From: Pseudomonadota bacterium
GTDB lineage: Bacteria; Pseudomonadota; Alphaproteobacteria; Micavibrionales; UBA2020
Assembly (NCBI GenBank): GCA_021845905.1
Contig: JAJZVA010000009.1
Span: 1-64,000, forward strand
Direction of reading: 5' to 3'
DNA: 64,000 nucleotides
This document shows, one piece after another, positions 859 through 6,973 of this stretch (within the stretch, counting starts at the first letter, position 1; each line of letters begins with the position of its first letter). Both the position numbers and the translations under genes were made by a program. Under the pieces are notes generated by a model. It worked only from the letters and a program-made list of their open reading frames with translations. It did no database searches and was not told the DNA's origin.

Positions 859-1710
859 TTATTGCAATGAAATCTGCGCAAGCGCGGGTGGCACGGACGC
901 AGGAACATAAAGCTTCTTGCCCAAAGACGTCAGCCAAACGCCACTCTGGTTCGCCGCTTCATAGAAGACGTATGGCTTTTTCCACCCATACACCCGCAGC
1001 GGGAGAACATACCGACTGGCCTCGACAACCGCGCCGCCGTCGTTGAGAACGATGAAATTCTGCGCCGCTCCCTTGGGCGCGACGTTCAAAAGCAAAACCA
1101 CATGATCCGGTTGCTTGCTCGACCCGCTCGCGCTGACAAGGGTGACCATGAGACGGTTTTCCGGCACACCCAGATGGCGCAAAATAGCGTATTGCAAGGT
1201 CGCGTAATCCTTGCAATCACCCGCCTTCGACAAAACCGTCTGCACCGGCGCCGCCCAATAAAAACCGGAAGCCTTGCCATAAAGGTTGTCGTTATAGGCG
1301 ATGTATTTAACAACTCCCGCATTGACGTCTTGCGCCATTTTCTTCAGCGGTTCTTGCGCGTAAATGTTGAACCCGTCGAGAAAAACATCATACTTACGCG
1401 CGTTTTTAACGTTGCTCATGCCGGCTTTCTGCCGGGCGGCAATGGCCTGCCAGTCATTATTTTGCAAACTTGCGGCACGGTAGGCCACTTCGCCGAAAGC
1501 CGTCACCGTCTCAGGTAAATCCGGATATTGCGCAGATGATGAGATATTTTGCGGTCGCGGCGCGGGCGTCACCGGCGCAGTGCTACAGCCGCCGCACACC
1601 AAAGCCACGCTCGCGAAAGCCGCACAGAGATATCCTTTCATGCGCGGTTTTAAACCGGATTTTTTTGCCTGCGGCGCGCCTGAAAACGAATGCGCCTTAT
1701 TTTCTTTCAT
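859..1710 (-). CDS. LapG-like (BTLCP, C93) transglutaminase-fold cysteine peptidase, paralogue 1
   Basis: Member of the bacterial transglutaminase-like cysteine proteinase family (PF06035), whose known member LapG cleaves large surface adhesins in the periplasm. The catalytic triad is visible: Cys166 in KAGDCKDYATLQY, His203 in PDHVVLLLNV and Asp224 in FIVLNDGG; Asp165 and Asp168 beside the Cys match the calcium-binding positions of LapG. The N-terminus has a basic stretch, a hydrophobic segment and a lipobox (VCGGC, Cys42), so it is probably a lipoprotein. It is the last of six tandem paralogues on this strand and has its own promoter-like sequence at 1750-1778. No lapD-like or large adhesin gene is nearby, so the substrate is unknown. 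Family assignment is firm; proteolytic role is inferred. Confidence 0.85.
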   Translation of the reverse strand: MKENKAHSFSGAPQAKKSGLKPRMKGYLCAAFASVALVCGGCSTAPVTPAPRPQNISSSAQYPDLPETVTAFGEVAYRAASLQNNDWQAIAARQKAGMSNVKNARKYDVFLDGFNIYAQEPLKKMAQDVNAGVVKYIAYNDNLYGKASGFYWAAPVQTVLSKAGDCKDYATLQYAILRHLGVPENRLMVTLVSASGSSKQPDHVVLLLNVAPKGAAQNFIVLNDGGAVVEASRYVLPLRVYGWKKPYVFYEAANQSGVWLTSLGKKLYVPASVPPALAQISLQ

Positions 1711-1869: not shown

Positions 1870-2751
1870 TTAAGGTTTTTTAGATGTGGGGGCATCAGGT
1901 TTGGATTTCGGCGAAACCTTGGCCCCATAAACCTTATCATACAATGGCGTAAACCACGCCGCATGCTGATTGAGCGCATCAAAAAATACATATGGCTTCG
2001 ACCAGATGCCGTTTGCCCCTTGAGGCCGGGCATAAAGACTTGCATCAACCACGGGGCCTCCGTCATTCAGGACAACGAAGTCTTGTTTTGATCCGTCTTT
2101 TGCCACGTTCATCAATAACACAAGATGGCTGGTTCCCTTGTCGGAACCGCTGGCATTGACAAAGGCCATGACCAGCCTGTTTTCCGGCACGCCCAAGTGG
2201 CGCATGATGGCATATTGCAAAACTGCATAAGCCTTGCACTCCGCCATGCCTGCCTGAACCGTCTGCACGGGCGCGGCCCAGTAAGCATCCGGATTCGGAT
2301 AAAGCTTGAATTTATAAGAAATAAGGCCAAGAACGCGCGTATTGACGTCCTGCGCCATTTTTCTCAGCGGTTCATGCGCATAAACCTCGAACTGATCGAG
2401 AAACGCCGCATATTTTTTCGCATCCTTTGCATCCTGCATGCCCTGTTCTTGACGTTCAAGCATCGATAGCCAGTTTGCGTAAGGTGCGATCTCTTTGCGT
2501 CTGGCAATGGCGCCAAAAGCCGCAACCGTCTCCGGCTCGCGCGGATGTTGCACAGTCGCGCTTAGCGTCAGAGGATCCAGACCCTTCAAGCCTGACGGCG
2601 TAGCCGCCAGGGAAGCTTGCCCAGCGCCAAGCGAAGTCGCCGAGATCGCGAAAGCAACAGCCGTGAAAGCCGCGCAGAGCGCCCCCTTTGCATGCCGCGC
2701 GCGCAATGGACAGTCTGCTTTCTTAGCAAAGTTGCCGTTGTCTTTATTCAT
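1870..2751 (-). CDS. LapG-like cysteine peptidase, paralogue 2, with altered calcium-site residues
   Basis: Same family as its neighbours (293 residues). The catalytic Cys172, His209 and Asp230 are retained, but the active-site motif reads MAECKAYAVLQY instead of GDCKDY/Q: the residue before the Cys is Glu rather than Asp and the Asp two residues after it is Ala. In LapG the acidic residues flanking the Cys bind calcium, so this copy may be calcium-independent or weak. An N-terminal signal peptide is likely (hydrophobic run with an ASLA-A cleavage region near 46-50); there is no lipobox. Its ATG overlaps the TGA of paralogue 3 (ATGA at 2748-2751), so the two are translationally coupled. The remainder of the fold (YWAAPVQTV before the Cys, MRHLGVPENRL after it) is conserved. 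Confidence 0.82.
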   Translation of the reverse strand: MNKDNGNFAKKADCPLRARHAKGALCAAFTAVAFAISATSLGAGQASLAATPSGLKGLDPLTLSATVQHPREPETVAAFGAIARRKEIAPYANWLSMLERQEQGMQDAKDAKKYAAFLDQFEVYAHEPLRKMAQDVNTRVLGLISYKFKLYPNPDAYWAAPVQTVQAGMAECKAYAVLQYAIMRHLGVPENRLVMAFVNASGSDKGTSHLVLLMNVAKDGSKQDFVVLNDGGPVVDASLYARPQGANGIWSKPYVFFDALNQHAAWFTPLYDKVYGAKVSPKSKPDAPTSKKP

Positions 2752-3713
2752 GTCACGCCATACGCGCTTTCTTTTTTCAAAGAGCTATTCGCCGCAACGG
2801 CAGGCGTGTTCCGAGACGCAATGTCCTTTTCGTTGATGATATAGTCTCTTGGCGTCAGGCTCGTCCGCCAGAAACCTTTTTCATTTCTGATATCATAAAG
2901 AACAAAATCGCATTTTACCCATTTGCCGTCTTGGTTTTGAGTATTCCATGTTTTTTGCACACGCAGATTATCGGCAGGAATAACCGGCGGACTATCATTT
3001 AAAATGACAAACTCCGGTTTTTGATGTATCGGCGCGACGTTCAATAGCAAAATGACATGATCAGGAGCCTTGCGGGAACCTTCCGCATTGACATTCGCTA
3101 TAAACAAACGGCTCGCAGGCACGCCCAAGTGGCGCAGAATGGCGTATTGCAAAGCCGACTGATCTTGACAGTCCCCTTTCCCGTGAAACACTGTTTCCGC
3201 AGGCGGAACCAAAGGATCATCCGATCCATAGAAGGTATCGCTATAGCTGACGTTTTTTTCCACGAGTGCGTTGACATGCGCAGCCATTTTTTTGAGAGGT
3301 TCGTTGCGAAAATGGTCGAACCGCCCTAAAAACGAATTGTATTTCACCGCTACTTTTTTCTGCCGCATGATATCGGCCTGATCGAGCCAAACGTCATGCC
3401 AGGTGCTCCAATAAGGATCTTTCCGCGGCGATGCCTGCGTTGCGACACTGTTAAAAACATTGATAATCCGTGGCCCTGCCGACTTGATATAAAAATCATT
3501 GCCGTCCGGAGGTTTGACCGGCAACGGCTTTGGTGGAGCGGGCCTGGGTGGAGCGGGCTTGACCGGTAGCGGCTCAACTGGCGACGGTGCGGGGCCTGGA
3601 TGGTCCGGCCGTATAAAATAGACATCAATTCCTACACCGGCCCCGGTCAGCACAGCCGCCGCGAAAGCCGCGCCAAGATATCCTTTCCAGCGCCAGGAAG
3701 AAGCTTTTTTCAT
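2748..3713 (-). CDS. LapG-like cysteine peptidase, paralogue 3, with proline-rich linker
   Basis: PF06035-type protein of 321 residues. Catalytic residues Cys182 (KGDCQDQSALQY), His219 (PDHVILLLNV) and Asp240 (FVILND) are present. After a short basic start (MKKASSWRWKGYL) and one hydrophobic segment there is a proline-rich stretch at about residues 36-69 made of repeated P-x-K-P / P-A-P units, a typical envelope-spanning spacer, so the protein is probably anchored in the inner membrane by an uncleaved signal and displays its peptidase domain at a distance. The KGYLxAAFAxxxL start is shared with paralogues 1, 4 and 5. It lies 50 bases behind paralogue 4 and overlaps paralogue 2 by four bases, so 5-4-3-2 probably form one transcript. 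Confidence 0.83.
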   Translation of the reverse strand: MKKASSWRWKGYLGAAFAAAVLTGAGVGIDVYFIRPDHPGPAPSPVEPLPVKPAPPRPAPPKPLPVKPPDGNDFYIKSAGPRIINVFNSVATQASPRKDPYWSTWHDVWLDQADIMRQKKVAVKYNSFLGRFDHFRNEPLKKMAAHVNALVEKNVSYSDTFYGSDDPLVPPAETVFHGKGDCQDQSALQYAILRHLGVPASRLFIANVNAEGSRKAPDHVILLLNVAPIHQKPEFVILNDSPPVIPADNLRVQKTWNTQNQDGKWVKCDFVLYDIRNEKGFWRTSLTPRDYIINEKDIASRNTPAVAANSSLKKESAYGVT

Positions 3714-3763: not shown

Positions 3764-4687
3764 TCACGACACGCCTGGCGCACCTTTTCTCCCGGGACGA
3801 GGGCCGGACGCGGAAGATGGTTGTATCTGCCATGATGCCCCCTGGTTCATGAGGTAATAGGGAACGACATCCGCACGCACCAGCGTGCCATTGCTCTTTC
3901 TCACCACCCACGTCTTTCGCACGAGCGCATTATCGGCATCGATGACCGGCTTGACGTCGTTAAGGATGACGAAATGAGGAGCTTTGTCTGCCGGCGCAAC
4001 ATTCAGAAGTAAAAAAGCATGGTCGTAATCGTCATGCGACCCAACTATGCTGACAATCGCAATCATCAAGCGCTTTTCCGGCACGCCGAGATGCCGCAAA
4101 ATGGCGTATTGCAATCCGGTCTGGTCCTTGCAATCGCCCTTGCCGTGAAGCACGGTCTCGGCGGGCGCGGCCCAATGGTCATCGGACTCGCCATAGAGTT
4201 TGGCGCTGTAAGCGATCGTATCTTCGACCAGCGTATTGACATGCGAAGCCATCACCCTCAATGGCTCGCCACGGAAACCATCGAACAGCGCGAGATAGTC
4301 ATTGTATTTCTTCGCAACATCCGGCCTCTCCATAAGCCTTTCCTGAAGTGATCTTGCATCGCCCCAGGATTGCCAAAGAGGATTCAAATCCGGCGAACTC
4401 CGCATCGCCACATCGCCGAAAACGCTGATAACGAAAGAGTCGACAGACGAGGTTGGAGCCTGCGGAACGACAGGAAGGGTTGCGTGCACGCTGTGGTTTC
4501 CCGCCGCAGGCTTTTGTCCGGCAGGCCGGGAATGCGTTGCGACGGGCTTGAAAGCATACCCACCCTCGGAAGGCGCCAAATGCCCGGCGACGCCGAAACA
4601 TCCGCCAACCAGCGCGACGGCTGCGAACGCCGCCCTGAGATAGCCTTTGCGTTTTTCATGTGCAACGATCGTGACGGGTGCTTTCAT
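3764..4687 (-). CDS. LapG-like cysteine peptidase lipoprotein, paralogue 4
   Basis: PF06035-type protein of 307 residues with Cys186 (GKGDCKDQTGLQY), His223 (YDHAFLLLNV) and Asp244 (FVILND) as the likely triad, and acidic residues on both sides of the Cys as in calcium-binding LapG. The N-terminus carries KRKGYLRAAFAAVALVGGC: basic residues, hydrophobic core and a lipobox with Cys30, so it is probably lipid-anchored. A low-complexity linker (residues about 40-85) separates anchor and catalytic domain. It starts three bases after the stop of paralogue 5, which indicates co-transcription and probably coupled translation. Its closest relatives in the array by eye are paralogues 3 and 5 (shared GEPLxxMAxxVNxLV and DKxxH/Y motifs). 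Confidence 0.84.
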   Translation of the reverse strand: MKAPVTIVAHEKRKGYLRAAFAAVALVGGCFGVAGHLAPSEGGYAFKPVATHSRPAGQKPAAGNHSVHATLPVVPQAPTSSVDSFVISVFGDVAMRSSPDLNPLWQSWGDARSLQERLMERPDVAKKYNDYLALFDGFRGEPLRVMASHVNTLVEDTIAYSAKLYGESDDHWAAPAETVLHGKGDCKDQTGLQYAILRHLGVPEKRLMIAIVSIVGSHDDYDHAFLLLNVAPADKAPHFVILNDVKPVIDADNALVRKTWVVRKSNGTLVRADVVPYYLMNQGASWQIQPSSASGPRPGRKGAPGVS

Positions 4688-4690
4688 ATT

Positions 4691-5890
4691 TCAGCTCACT
4701 TTCATGCCCGGCACGACCGTGGCTTTCGAATGCGAGGCCGGTGCCGGAGCAAGTTTCTGCCCGAACACTTTTCTACCCACCGCCGTCTGCCAGAACCCAT
4801 CCTGATTGATGGCAGCGTAAAAAACATACGGCAAAGACCATTCATAATCTGCGCCTTGCGGGCGCGTATACTCCCTGGCATCCAGAACAGGCCCGCTGTC
4901 ATTCATCACAAGATAATCCGGCTTATATCCTTTCGGCTCAATGTTCAAAATCAAGACCGAATGATCAACTGAATTAGTCGAGCCTACTGCGCTGACAGAA
5001 GCGATCATCAAACGTTTTTCCGACACGCCGAGATGTCTCATGATGTAATATTGGAGTATAGCCTGATCTTTACAGTCACCCGCGCCATGCCACACCGTCT
5101 CCGCAGGCGCAGCCCAGTGGGTATCATCCTTATCATAAAGCGTATCACTGTAAGTGACTGTGTTTTGCATCAGCCTATTGACATCGACGGCCATGGCAGT
5201 GAGCGGTTCGCCACGGAAACGGTCGAACTGCGCTATATAATCGTTGTATTTTTTTGCGACATCAGGCTTTCTCATGAATTTATCCTGAAGAGACACCATG
5301 TCGCCCCAGCTTTCCCATCCCAAATCGTCCTTCGGAGAAATCTGCTGAGCTACACCATTGAAGACACGGATAACGTCTGGACCCGCGGCCTTGTTGTCGA
5401 CGGGCACGCTATCCGGAGGATAAGAAGACTCGTTTGGCTTGTATATGTCGTATCCATACACTCCCAGCACGCCAGCCATTAAAGCAACGCTAAAAGCTTT
5501 TTTCAGATAGCCTTTGCCGGGTGACTTCCCTTTGTTTTTTTTCGCTCCCGATTTGCACTGCAAGTCGGACTTGATAAACGCCGTTTCTCCAGAGTTTCTT
5601 TCAGTAACCGCAGTCACGGCAGGGAAGGCGCGCACCTTGTCGATCAAATCAGCCCCGCAGGAGAGCATGATGAATCCGGTGTCGGGAAAAACCGTTTCAA
5701 TGAAAACACCCTCGATTACAGACTTGCTGTCATAGCCTGCGTCTTGTGCAAGCGCCTGAATATTACGGCTCAACTCATGTATAAAATAATGACGCGTATC
5801 TTTAAAAGGAAAGGCGACATCAACCTGCCATTTTATTTGGGTATGCTTAGCATCCGGTGCCTTGGCGGCATTTTTTAGTTCAATGTCCAT
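4691..5890 (-). CDS. LapG-like cysteine peptidase with extra N-terminal domain, paralogue 5
   Basis: The largest copy (399 residues). Residues about 150-399 are the usual PF06035 domain with Cys273 (GAGDCKDQAILQY), His310 (VDHSVLILNI) and Asp331 (YLVMND). Uniquely, the shared export motif (KGYLKKAFSVALMAGVLG) begins only at residue 127: about 125 residues precede it, so this part would stay in the cytoplasm and the protein would be a single-pass inner-membrane protein. The extension looks like a small alpha/beta domain (strand, helix, strand, with GFIMLSCGADLIDKVRAFPAV), vaguely like ferredoxin-fold or I9-propeptide domains; I cannot assign it. First gene of the likely 5-4-3-2 transcript, with a promoter candidate at 5944-5971. 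Confidence 0.82.
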   Translation of the reverse strand: MDIELKNAAKAPDAKHTQIKWQVDVAFPFKDTRHYFIHELSRNIQALAQDAGYDSKSVIEGVFIETVFPDTGFIMLSCGADLIDKVRAFPAVTAVTERNSGETAFIKSDLQCKSGAKKNKGKSPGKGYLKKAFSVALMAGVLGVYGYDIYKPNESSYPPDSVPVDNKAAGPDVIRVFNGVAQQISPKDDLGWESWGDMVSLQDKFMRKPDVAKKYNDYIAQFDRFRGEPLTAMAVDVNRLMQNTVTYSDTLYDKDDTHWAAPAETVWHGAGDCKDQAILQYYIMRHLGVSEKRLMIASVSAVGSTNSVDHSVLILNIEPKGYKPDYLVMNDSGPVLDAREYTRPQGADYEWSLPYVFYAAINQDGFWQTAVGRKVFGQKLAPAPASHSKATVVPGMKVS

Positions 5891-6016: not shown

Positions 6017-6808
6017 TTACCAACTCAAACCATATACACGGTCTCTCTTCGTTGCCCAAAATCCATTCTCATTGCGCGCGTCAAAAAACGTATAACGGTG
6101 TTGCCTCCAGTCCTTTTCATACATTGAGTCCGGAAAAACACCCAGCGTGTCATTCATCACCAAAAAATCTTGAAGCTTGCCGACCGGCGCGACATTGACC
6201 AGCAAAACAGCGTGGTCCGTCTCATTGTCATTACCATTCGTCCTGTCTGCATTAACGTATGCTATGAACATCCGGTTTGACGGCACACCGAGTGAACGCA
6301 AGATGAAATACTGCAATACGGCCTGATCCTTGCAGTCTCCTTCGCCATGACGCACGGTCTCCGCTGGGGTCGCCCAATAATCGTCATCCTTGCCGTAGAG
6401 CGTATCGCTATAACCGATCTGATATTGCACAAGATCGCTAACGTCATTTACCGCTTTCGCCAGAGGCTCGCCGCCGAATTTTTTAAACTGTTTCAAATAT
6501 TTCCGATAAGGCTGCGCGCATTGCGGTTTTTCCATGCATTCCGCCTGATGACGCAACAACCTCGTCCACCTTAAACCAGACGGATCTTCATACCTTGGCA
6601 TTTTTATGGCCTTGTCATTGAAGGCCACCAGAGCGGGAGGTTGTTGTCCTGCCACAGTCACGACCGGCGCAAAAGATTTGGGATGATAAGGTTCGCTATA
6701 CGGTTCGACTCCACAACCGCCAAGGATCGCTACGCCTGCAAAAATGGCGCAAAGGCTTTTTTTTGCACGCAGACTGACGGCTAACTGCTTTATTTTATTC
6801 TGATTCAT
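6017..6808 (-). CDS. LapG-like cysteine peptidase lipoprotein, paralogue 6
   Basis: PF06035-type protein, 263 residues from the chosen ATG at 6808. The reading frame is open further up to 6916, but a good promoter lies at 6849-6876 inside that extension, so the start must be downstream of it. The N-terminus then reads as a clean lipoprotein signal with lipobox LGGC (Cys32). The motif DDYWATPAETV...GEGDCKDQ is the closest in the array to genuine LapG. Likely triad Cys159, His199, Asp220. A second Cys pair (Cys91, Cys97) in the linker region is peculiar to this copy and could form a disulphide in the periplasm. It is the most upstream member of the array and is separated from paralogue 5 by a 126-base gap holding the latter's promoter. 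Confidence 0.82.
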   Translation of the reverse strand: MNQNKIKQLAVSLRAKKSLCAIFAGVAILGGCGVEPYSEPYHPKSFAPVVTVAGQQPPALVAFNDKAIKMPRYEDPSGLRWTRLLRHQAECMEKPQCAQPYRKYLKQFKKFGGEPLAKAVNDVSDLVQYQIGYSDTLYGKDDDYWATPAETVRHGEGDCKDQAVLQYFILRSLGVPSNRMFIAYVNADRTNGNDNETDHAVLLVNVAPVGKLQDFLVMNDTLGVFPDSMYEKDWRQHRYTFFDARNENGFWATKRDRVYGLSW

Positions 6809-6848
6809 CCCGCTCATCCATTTTGGACATTTGATCAGCAGTATTGTT

Positions 6849-6876
6849 ATATTAGGAAAAATATAATTTATGTCAA
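6849..6876 (-). promoter_or_regulatory. Candidate sigma-70 promoter for paralogue 6
   Basis: On the minus strand TTGACA (6876-6871) stands 16 bases from TAATAT (6854-6849), giving a predicted transcript start near 6842, about 34 bases before the chosen ATG at 6808. This promoter decides the start of the downstream gene. Confidence 0.55.
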
Positions 6877-6973
6877 TAATATAATCCTGCGTTCTGTATT
6901 GGTTTTCGAATGACATTTTATATTTTATTTATTATTTTCAGAGCCTTCTAAAAAATTGACAGAGGTCAAAAAA

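Follow-up and report, generated by a model that had tools for sequence, protein, structure and literature searches.

The sections of PMC13090378 on which we draw describe LapG as soluble and periplasmic, and DvhG of Desulfovibrio vulgaris as a BTLCP peptidase that an N-terminal transmembrane helix, with a long linker, keeps in the membrane. HvyA of Caulobacter crescentus is an alphaproteobacterial BTLCP with a C/H/D triad which, according to the portion of PMC4241560 used here, acts on the capsule rather than on an adhesin; a capsular role is therefore open to alphaproteobacterial members.

The stretch of DNA analysed here (the window, 64,000 nucleotides) comes from an uncultured alphaproteobacterium and carries six C93-like genes in tandem, P1 to P6, on the minus strand between positions 859 and 6916. 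By sequence, P5 shares a superfamily with LapG and the BTLCP peptidases (Peptidase_C93), being likewise predicted to be exported and having the Cys/His/Asp positions invariant. In contrast to LapG as described above, P5 is predicted to be membrane-anchored, and it scores under both the C93 and the LapG cut-offs. Membrane anchoring is a trait that P5 would share with DvhG, yet the sections of PMC13090378 used here describe no cytoplasmic domain ahead of the DvhG helix. HvyA differs from P5 in having a Sec signal sequence, with neither a membrane anchor nor an extra domain described for it in the same portion of PMC4241560. The features of the locus are as follows.

859 to 1710, minus strand: P1, paralogue without the domain (ORF list, alignment)
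1870 to 2751, minus strand: P2, paralogue without the domain, 4-nt overlap with P3 (ORF list, alignment)
2748 to 3713, minus strand: P3, paralogue without the domain (ORF list, alignment)
3764 to 4687, minus strand: P4, paralogue without the domain, starting 3 nt past the P5 stop codon (ORF list, alignment)
4691 to 5890, minus strand: P5, ORF of 399 amino acids with an I9-like domain, a Lys-rich linker, a predicted membrane segment and a C93/transglutaminase-like domain (ORF list, Pfam, alignment)
6017 to 6916, minus strand: P6, paralogue without the domain, upstream of P5 (ORF list, alignment)
5516 to 5890, minus strand: extra N-terminal 125 residues of P5, without counterpart in the five window paralogues (alignment A6 and profile match, E 1.3e-8)
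5588 to 5845, minus strand: folded core, residues 16-101, modelled as beta-alpha-beta-beta-alpha-beta, with an almost invariant Cys78 (AlphaFold model, structure-aligned range)
5495 to 5572, minus strand: basic linker at the junction of domain and export segment, residues 107-132 (alignment, charge; model of low confidence at 107-119)
5535 to 5542, no strand assigned: run of eight A as read on the minus strand, at codon 117, where a length change would split the ORF (homopolymer scan)
5444 to 5494, minus strand: predicted membrane segment, residues 133-149, in-to-out by charge (hydropathy and charge)
4862 to 5209, minus strand: C93/transglutaminase-like catalytic region, residues 228-343 (Pfam DUF553 and C93 matches)
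5072 to 5074, minus strand: Cys273, putative nucleophile, invariant in A6 (alignment)
4961 to 4963, minus strand: His310, putative catalytic His, invariant in A6 (alignment)
4898 to 4900, minus strand: Asp331, adjoining Asn330, putative third catalytic residue, invariant in A6 (alignment)

Judging from gene spacing, P5 probably heads an operon formed by the compact run P5-P4-P3-P2-P1, since its stop codon lies just ahead of the P4 ATG and the P3 and P2 frames share four bases. The anchors vary among the six paralogues, some having a lipobox-like GGC and P5 and P3 a plain hydrophobic segment. A lipoprotein-like G-G-C occurs in the hydrophobic stretch of P1, P4 and P6 and is absent in P5; the lipobox pattern scan flagged P4 and P6 only, and that of P1 was seen in the alignment. 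At the places examined, relatives of the same genus carry one close copy or two, against six tandem paralogues in the window. A second run of eight A lies at 6757-6764 in the Lys-rich leader of P6, and the leaders of these genes may be prone to slippage.

A small-protein family matching the N-terminal domain

The frame of P5 runs uninterrupted from the ATG at 5890 through 399 amino acids. In alignment A6, whose 13 rows comprise P5, the five window paralogues and seven relatives from other genomes (P6 and some relatives being trimmed to a chosen internal start), the segment common to P5 and the paralogues starts at K126-G127-Y-L, the KGYL of the export segment. Residues 1-125 find no counterpart in the 12 other rows, whose leaders are short and unrelated. 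A preliminary description of the locus had placed about 125 extra residues before the shared export segment, absent from the other copies, and the 13-row alignment bears this out at positions 5516 to 5890.

These residues are homologous to small proteins, roughly 95-220 residues long, that occur free-standing and form a family without a name. We built a profile from 31 stand-alone ORFs, leaving out every own-genome locus to avoid circularity, and this window-free profile matched the P5 domain at 30.3 bits (E 1.3e-8), with the next window ORF at E 0.22; among 12,900 shuffled ORFs the top score was 9.0 bits. A second profile, seeded by eight close stand-alone members of one subgroup (A4), gave P5 9.2 bits before iteration and 27.9 bits (E 6.2e-8) in the fifth round; own-genome loci were left out of the databases for both builds. 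Of the 31 stand-alone ORFs, 20 are in alignment A3, together with the window sequence, and the family Cys (residue 78 of P5) is present in 30 of the 33 rows of the stand-alone alignment.

A domain-only search of 94 genomes (the own genome and relatives) returned, outside the own genome, weak candidates only. By eye, 13 of the 15 non-self candidate loci (L034-L046) were chance matches. The other two (L032 and L033), from same-family genomes, were real and opened up the family, with the common pattern G-x-x-L-L-K-C-D-x-x-F-A-D-K-V-x-x-L-P-S-V-x-A-V. The idea that the domain is restricted to its own genome was rejected, as these two loci led to the wider family. At E <= 0.001 the family occurs in 20 of the 142 genomes of the order, namely in 15 of the 18 genomes of f1 (the window's family), three genomes of f5 and two of f3. 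The fusion occurs in one of these 20, the window's own. The open frame of P5 has 409 codons, no other family match has a frame longer than 222 codons, and the P5 domain, having no C-terminus of its own, does not count as free-standing. The preliminary description had staked its reading on conservation in related genomes: the domain family is indeed found there, but the fusion belongs to the window's genome only.

An order-wide profile search gave no second family copy in the window's genome, and three same-genus genomes (G001, G002, G005) lack the family altogether. In Pfam, the 125 residues matched nothing and none of the 21 members received a credible family; the I9 entry gave no match at E<=10 for any of the 21, the P5 domain included, a search in which HMMER filters drop weak matches. 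NCBIfam named none of the three members tried, the PDB sequence search returned nothing for the family and no I9 chain, and a scan of genome contigs with P5 found no relative. None of the 21 family ORFs in 13 neighbourhoods adjoins a paralogue-like C93 gene; the domain therefore normally exists alone.

Several further observations concern the family itself. Stand-alone members at L109, L112, L115 and L118 lie in a recurring island with amidase/GatA, GatB, a HAD hydrolase and an FAD oxidoreductase, and L109 has four family ORFs in tandem. Among the stand-alone members at L032, L033 and L050-L105, most finish with a brief basic stretch rich in Pro (PKP, PGGPRI, RRPGM, KPGL); similar ends occur in a few neighbours unrelated to the family, for example L110:4000-4665, which terminates in NAPKP. 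A Nitrospirae MAG contig (L147, MHDY01000205.1) matches the family weakly, at 42% over about 40 residues, with E 2e-4 in a comparison of candidate stretches. We rejected an origin from defence systems or phages after PADLOC, PHROGs and a phage comparison gave nothing credible, and literature searches on small bacterial I9-like proteins brought up nothing on point.

Fold and predicted topology of P5

AlphaFold modelling of the P5 domain with 14 rows gave strands at residues 20-26, 59-64, 71-77 and 92-98 and helices at 30-51 and 80-87, with pLDDT of 70-89 in the core blocks. An independent model of a stand-alone member, made without the window sequence, showed the identical beta-alpha-beta-beta-alpha-beta order. 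The compact alpha/beta domain of the preliminary description is thus supported by two models of the same fold, in which it folds separately.

In Foldseek, the best rows for the P5 model were Aspergillus (A. fumigatus) alkaline protease propeptide (E 4.2e-3). VIA-align put the PCSK9 prodomain and Aspergillus propeptides on top (Z 9.6, 2.6-2.8 A, 77-79 residues; PCSK9 itself Z 9.6, 2.6 A, 77 residues), with Mesd/Boca (Z up to 9.3) and S6 and ACT-type folds (Z about 8) as close runners-up. For the stand-alone model, the best matches were the subtilisin BPN' prosegment (E 8.9e-4), pro-subtilisin E and MORF (E 2.4e-3), with the inhibitor POIA1 at rank 50; in VIA-align, PCSK9 was tied with acetohydroxyacid synthase subunits and Boca at Z 8.7-8.8. 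S8 propeptides are hence the top structural matches, and other ferredoxin-like folds follow within 1-2 Z units. The modelled fold is best described as I9-like and ferredoxin-like, and the I9 label is a lean rather than proof, because S6, ACT, Mesd/Boca and the acetohydroxyacid synthase subunit all reach Z 8-9. Fold prediction of residues 1-125 with a structure search, the check put forward earlier, accordingly returned a beta-alpha-beta-beta-alpha-beta unit with S8 propeptides nearest and other ferredoxin-like folds close by.

The best hydrophobic window of P5, residues 133-149, has a KD value of 1.46, weaker than in the other copies (1.79-2.11). The 20 residues that precede this segment carry a net charge of +8, and the 20 that follow it carry -1. 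Under the positive-inside rule, the basic flank of a membrane segment stays in the cytoplasm, so that these flanks would keep the domain cytoplasmic and send the enzyme out. From hydropathy and charge, P5 is predicted to be a single-span inner-membrane protein with a cytoplasmic domain and a periplasmic enzyme, and the cytoplasmic side claimed for the domain holds as a prediction. With the domain and the active site on opposite sides of the membrane in this topology, the I9-like module is unlikely to inhibit its own enzyme, as it could not easily act across the membrane. The sensory or inhibitory role suggested in the preliminary description stands insofar as the nearest folds are protease propeptides and inhibitors, but the domain would be on the wrong side for self-inhibition and matches no known sensor.

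The enzyme part and the canonical C93 gene of the order

P5 matched DUF553 in Pfam at 21.4 bits (cut-off 20.5) and Peptidase_C93 (PF06035) at 20.2-22.0 bits, below the gathering cut-off of 27, which P1 and P6 passed and P2-P4, like P5, missed. Genome-wide there were nine C93 matches, five of them above the cut-off. Against the LapG equivalog NF045674 P5 scored 50.0 bits and the six paralogues 33.9-59.7, with a cut-off of 320. By these profile scores P5 is C93/LapG-like and no LapG orthologue, so that the label of LapG-like peptidase fits at the level of the superfamily and fails at that of orthology (50 against 320 bits). Cys273, His310 and Asn330-Asp331 are invariant in all 13 rows of A6; their catalytic role is putative, and we infer enzyme activity. 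A LapD acting in trans was rejected: the best match to LapD_MoxY_N (PF16448) in the whole genome reached 12.2 bits against a cut-off of 25. The genome has 12 GGDEF matches and therefore c-di-GMP signalling.

The genome also encodes a canonical C93 gene (G000:C3:61157-62068, at L138:2158-3147, minus strand), in which an MshEN-like segment at the N-terminus is followed directly by a membrane/signal segment and the C93 domain. A profile of the MshEN-like segments of 17 orthologues matched the genome's own PilB/GspE-type ATPase at E 1e-12; this ATPase, whose PilB/GspE type was assigned by eye, is a bona fide PF05157 protein. Pfam MshEN (PF05157) itself was called on none of the 17 orthologues. The portion of PMC5013675 used here gives a relaxed 24-residue MshEN motif, with two copies 29 residues apart. 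In the 17 orthologues, which are rows selected for the motif, this relaxed form occurs at least once in 12 and twice in three; the window ORFs, 77,596 aa in all, contain none. When we loosened the motif further, nine of the 17 selected orthologues had two motifs exactly 29 residues apart. The underlying alignment, A5, takes in 17 of 23 loci, leaving out L031 (frame cut at the start) and the motif-less copies L007, L009, L010, L011 and L020, and L028 was trimmed to begin at the motif. The second motif of the own-genome copy is degenerate.

The motif counts thus come from chosen rows; the order-wide and class-wide profile counts are unselected. The canonical C93 gene is present in 135 of the 142 genomes of the order, and in about 131 the match starts at profile position <= 22 and therefore takes in the MshEN-like segment. 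Of 142 genomes sampled across the class, two belong to the order; in the 29 other-order genomes with matches, every match starts at position >= 107. The main-text section of PMC5013675 on MshEN partner domains includes no peptidase, and in the part of the literature surveyed we recognised no published chain of MshEN with LapG, C93 or a protease. A cis sensor-peptidase of the kind imagined in the preliminary description thus does seem to exist, by its sequence features, in G000:C3:61157-62068 and not in P5. The LapD-like role in cis proposed there finds its layout, as far as can be seen, in this canonical MshEN-like/C93 gene; the P5 domain is not MshEN-like.

Readings of the fusion and comparison with known systems

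We lean, if modestly, towards reading P5 as the product of a recent gene fusion through which an exported C93-like enzyme acquired an I9-like protein-binding module as its anchor in the cytoplasm. In this reading, one entire small protein, from a lineage-specific family of stand-alone proteins resembling I9 propeptides, would have been attached through its tail to the export segment of a C93/transglutaminase-like enzyme that had arisen by duplication and whose gene comes first in the run P5-P4-P3-P2-P1. The product would be a single-span inner-membrane protein with the I9-like module inside and the enzyme in the periplasm. I9 and MORF folds are binding folds for partner proteins, and the module would most likely be a protein-binding dock linking the enzyme to a partner or a site in the cytoplasm. 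The fusion and the fold are well supported, the fusion being apparently real but a one-off, seen in one genome.

Stand-alone members tend to end with a Pro-rich basic tail (PKP, KKKSPGGPRI, RRPGM), and at the junction P5 reads KKNKGKSPG and then KGYLKKAF; because KKNKGKSPG resembles the stand-alone tails, it looks as if an entire small protein had been attached tail-first to the export segment. An artefact is nonetheless possible for a fusion found in one genome with eight A at the junction: two adjacent, slightly overlapping genes may have been joined by a change in the length of this run, through sequencing, assembly, mutation or slippage, which would make the junction either artificial or switchable. 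The run at codon 117 sits in the tail, exactly at the junction, with a stop in another frame shortly past it and a GTG in a further frame shortly ahead of it; with an altered length, the first gene would stop soon after the run and the second could start just before it. The stand-alone family also normally terminates at the junction, and other genomes lack the fusion. Against this, the 64-kb window has 10 runs of eight A and none longer, several within long ORFs by coordinate comparison and one in the Lys-rich leader of P6, so the run by itself is weak evidence of an artefact, and the tail of P5 resembles the stand-alone KKKSPGGPRI; we hold this origin to be unlikely. It is very improbable, in our view, that the enzyme is mainly made from an internal start. 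Possible starts lie at residues 40, 75, 82, 86, 92 and 110, and the in-frame TTG110, GTG92 and GTG86 could in principle give a shorter product with a paralogue-like leader of normal length, TTG110 being 16 codons ahead of the shared segment. Yet no clear Shine-Dalgarno was seen by eye ahead of the internal start codons, and the frame upstream of them, which is the same one, encodes the conserved domain. Translation from Met1 is favoured, because residues 1-125 are homologous to real proteins in that frame, and a true start at a Met near residue 126, which the preliminary description had named as fatal to its reading, loses ground for the same reason.

If the two parts are truly joined, the domain may still be a passenger that retains its old cytosolic job, or none, its attachment having no regulatory meaning. 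The single occurrence and the lack of another family copy in the genome would fit P5 as the holder of the only surviving copy, as would the same-genus genomes G001, G002 and G005, which have no family member. But the frame is intact across the domain and the family pattern is kept, Cys78 included, and we consider a passenger somewhat unlikely. Quite unlikely, to our mind, is a cytoplasmic sensory domain that switches a periplasmic peptidase in cis across the membrane and so replaces LapD. The predicted topology of P5 would suit it, relatives use the layout in the canonical C93 gene with its MshEN-like segment at the same place, and the GGDEF matches attest c-di-GMP signalling in the genome. 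However, the P5 domain is neither MshEN-like nor like any known sensor, P5 is no LapG orthologue, and a single helix followed by a long, probably flexible periplasmic stretch would make a poor relay. If the fusion is real, it offers a handle on an unnamed small cytoplasmic family whose partners may sit at the inner membrane near C93-type enzymes.

Compared with known systems, the P5 domain shares its strand-helix order with Inhibitor I9/subtilisin propeptides, POIA1 and MORF, the best structural matches of both models, although it has no Pfam or PDB sequence match to the I9/subtilisin propeptide group. Unlike that group, it is predicted to be cytoplasmic and is fused across the membrane to a peptidase of another clan. 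P5 belongs to a known class of enzyme, but its combination of domains is new and was seen a single time. MshEN, a c-di-GMP receptor, resembles the N-terminal module ahead of the membrane segment in the order's canonical C93 gene and is unrelated to the P5 domain. It is a speculative and rather unlikely proposal that the order took the LapD role into the peptidase chain more than once, with an MshEN-like c-di-GMP module in the canonical C93 protein and an unrelated I9-like dock in P5, each working through one membrane segment as single-chain inside-out control. The MshEN-like/C93 by-product of this work matters more than the P5 fusion: such a chain, present across the order, would unite the relay of c-di-GMP, LapD and LapG in one protein.
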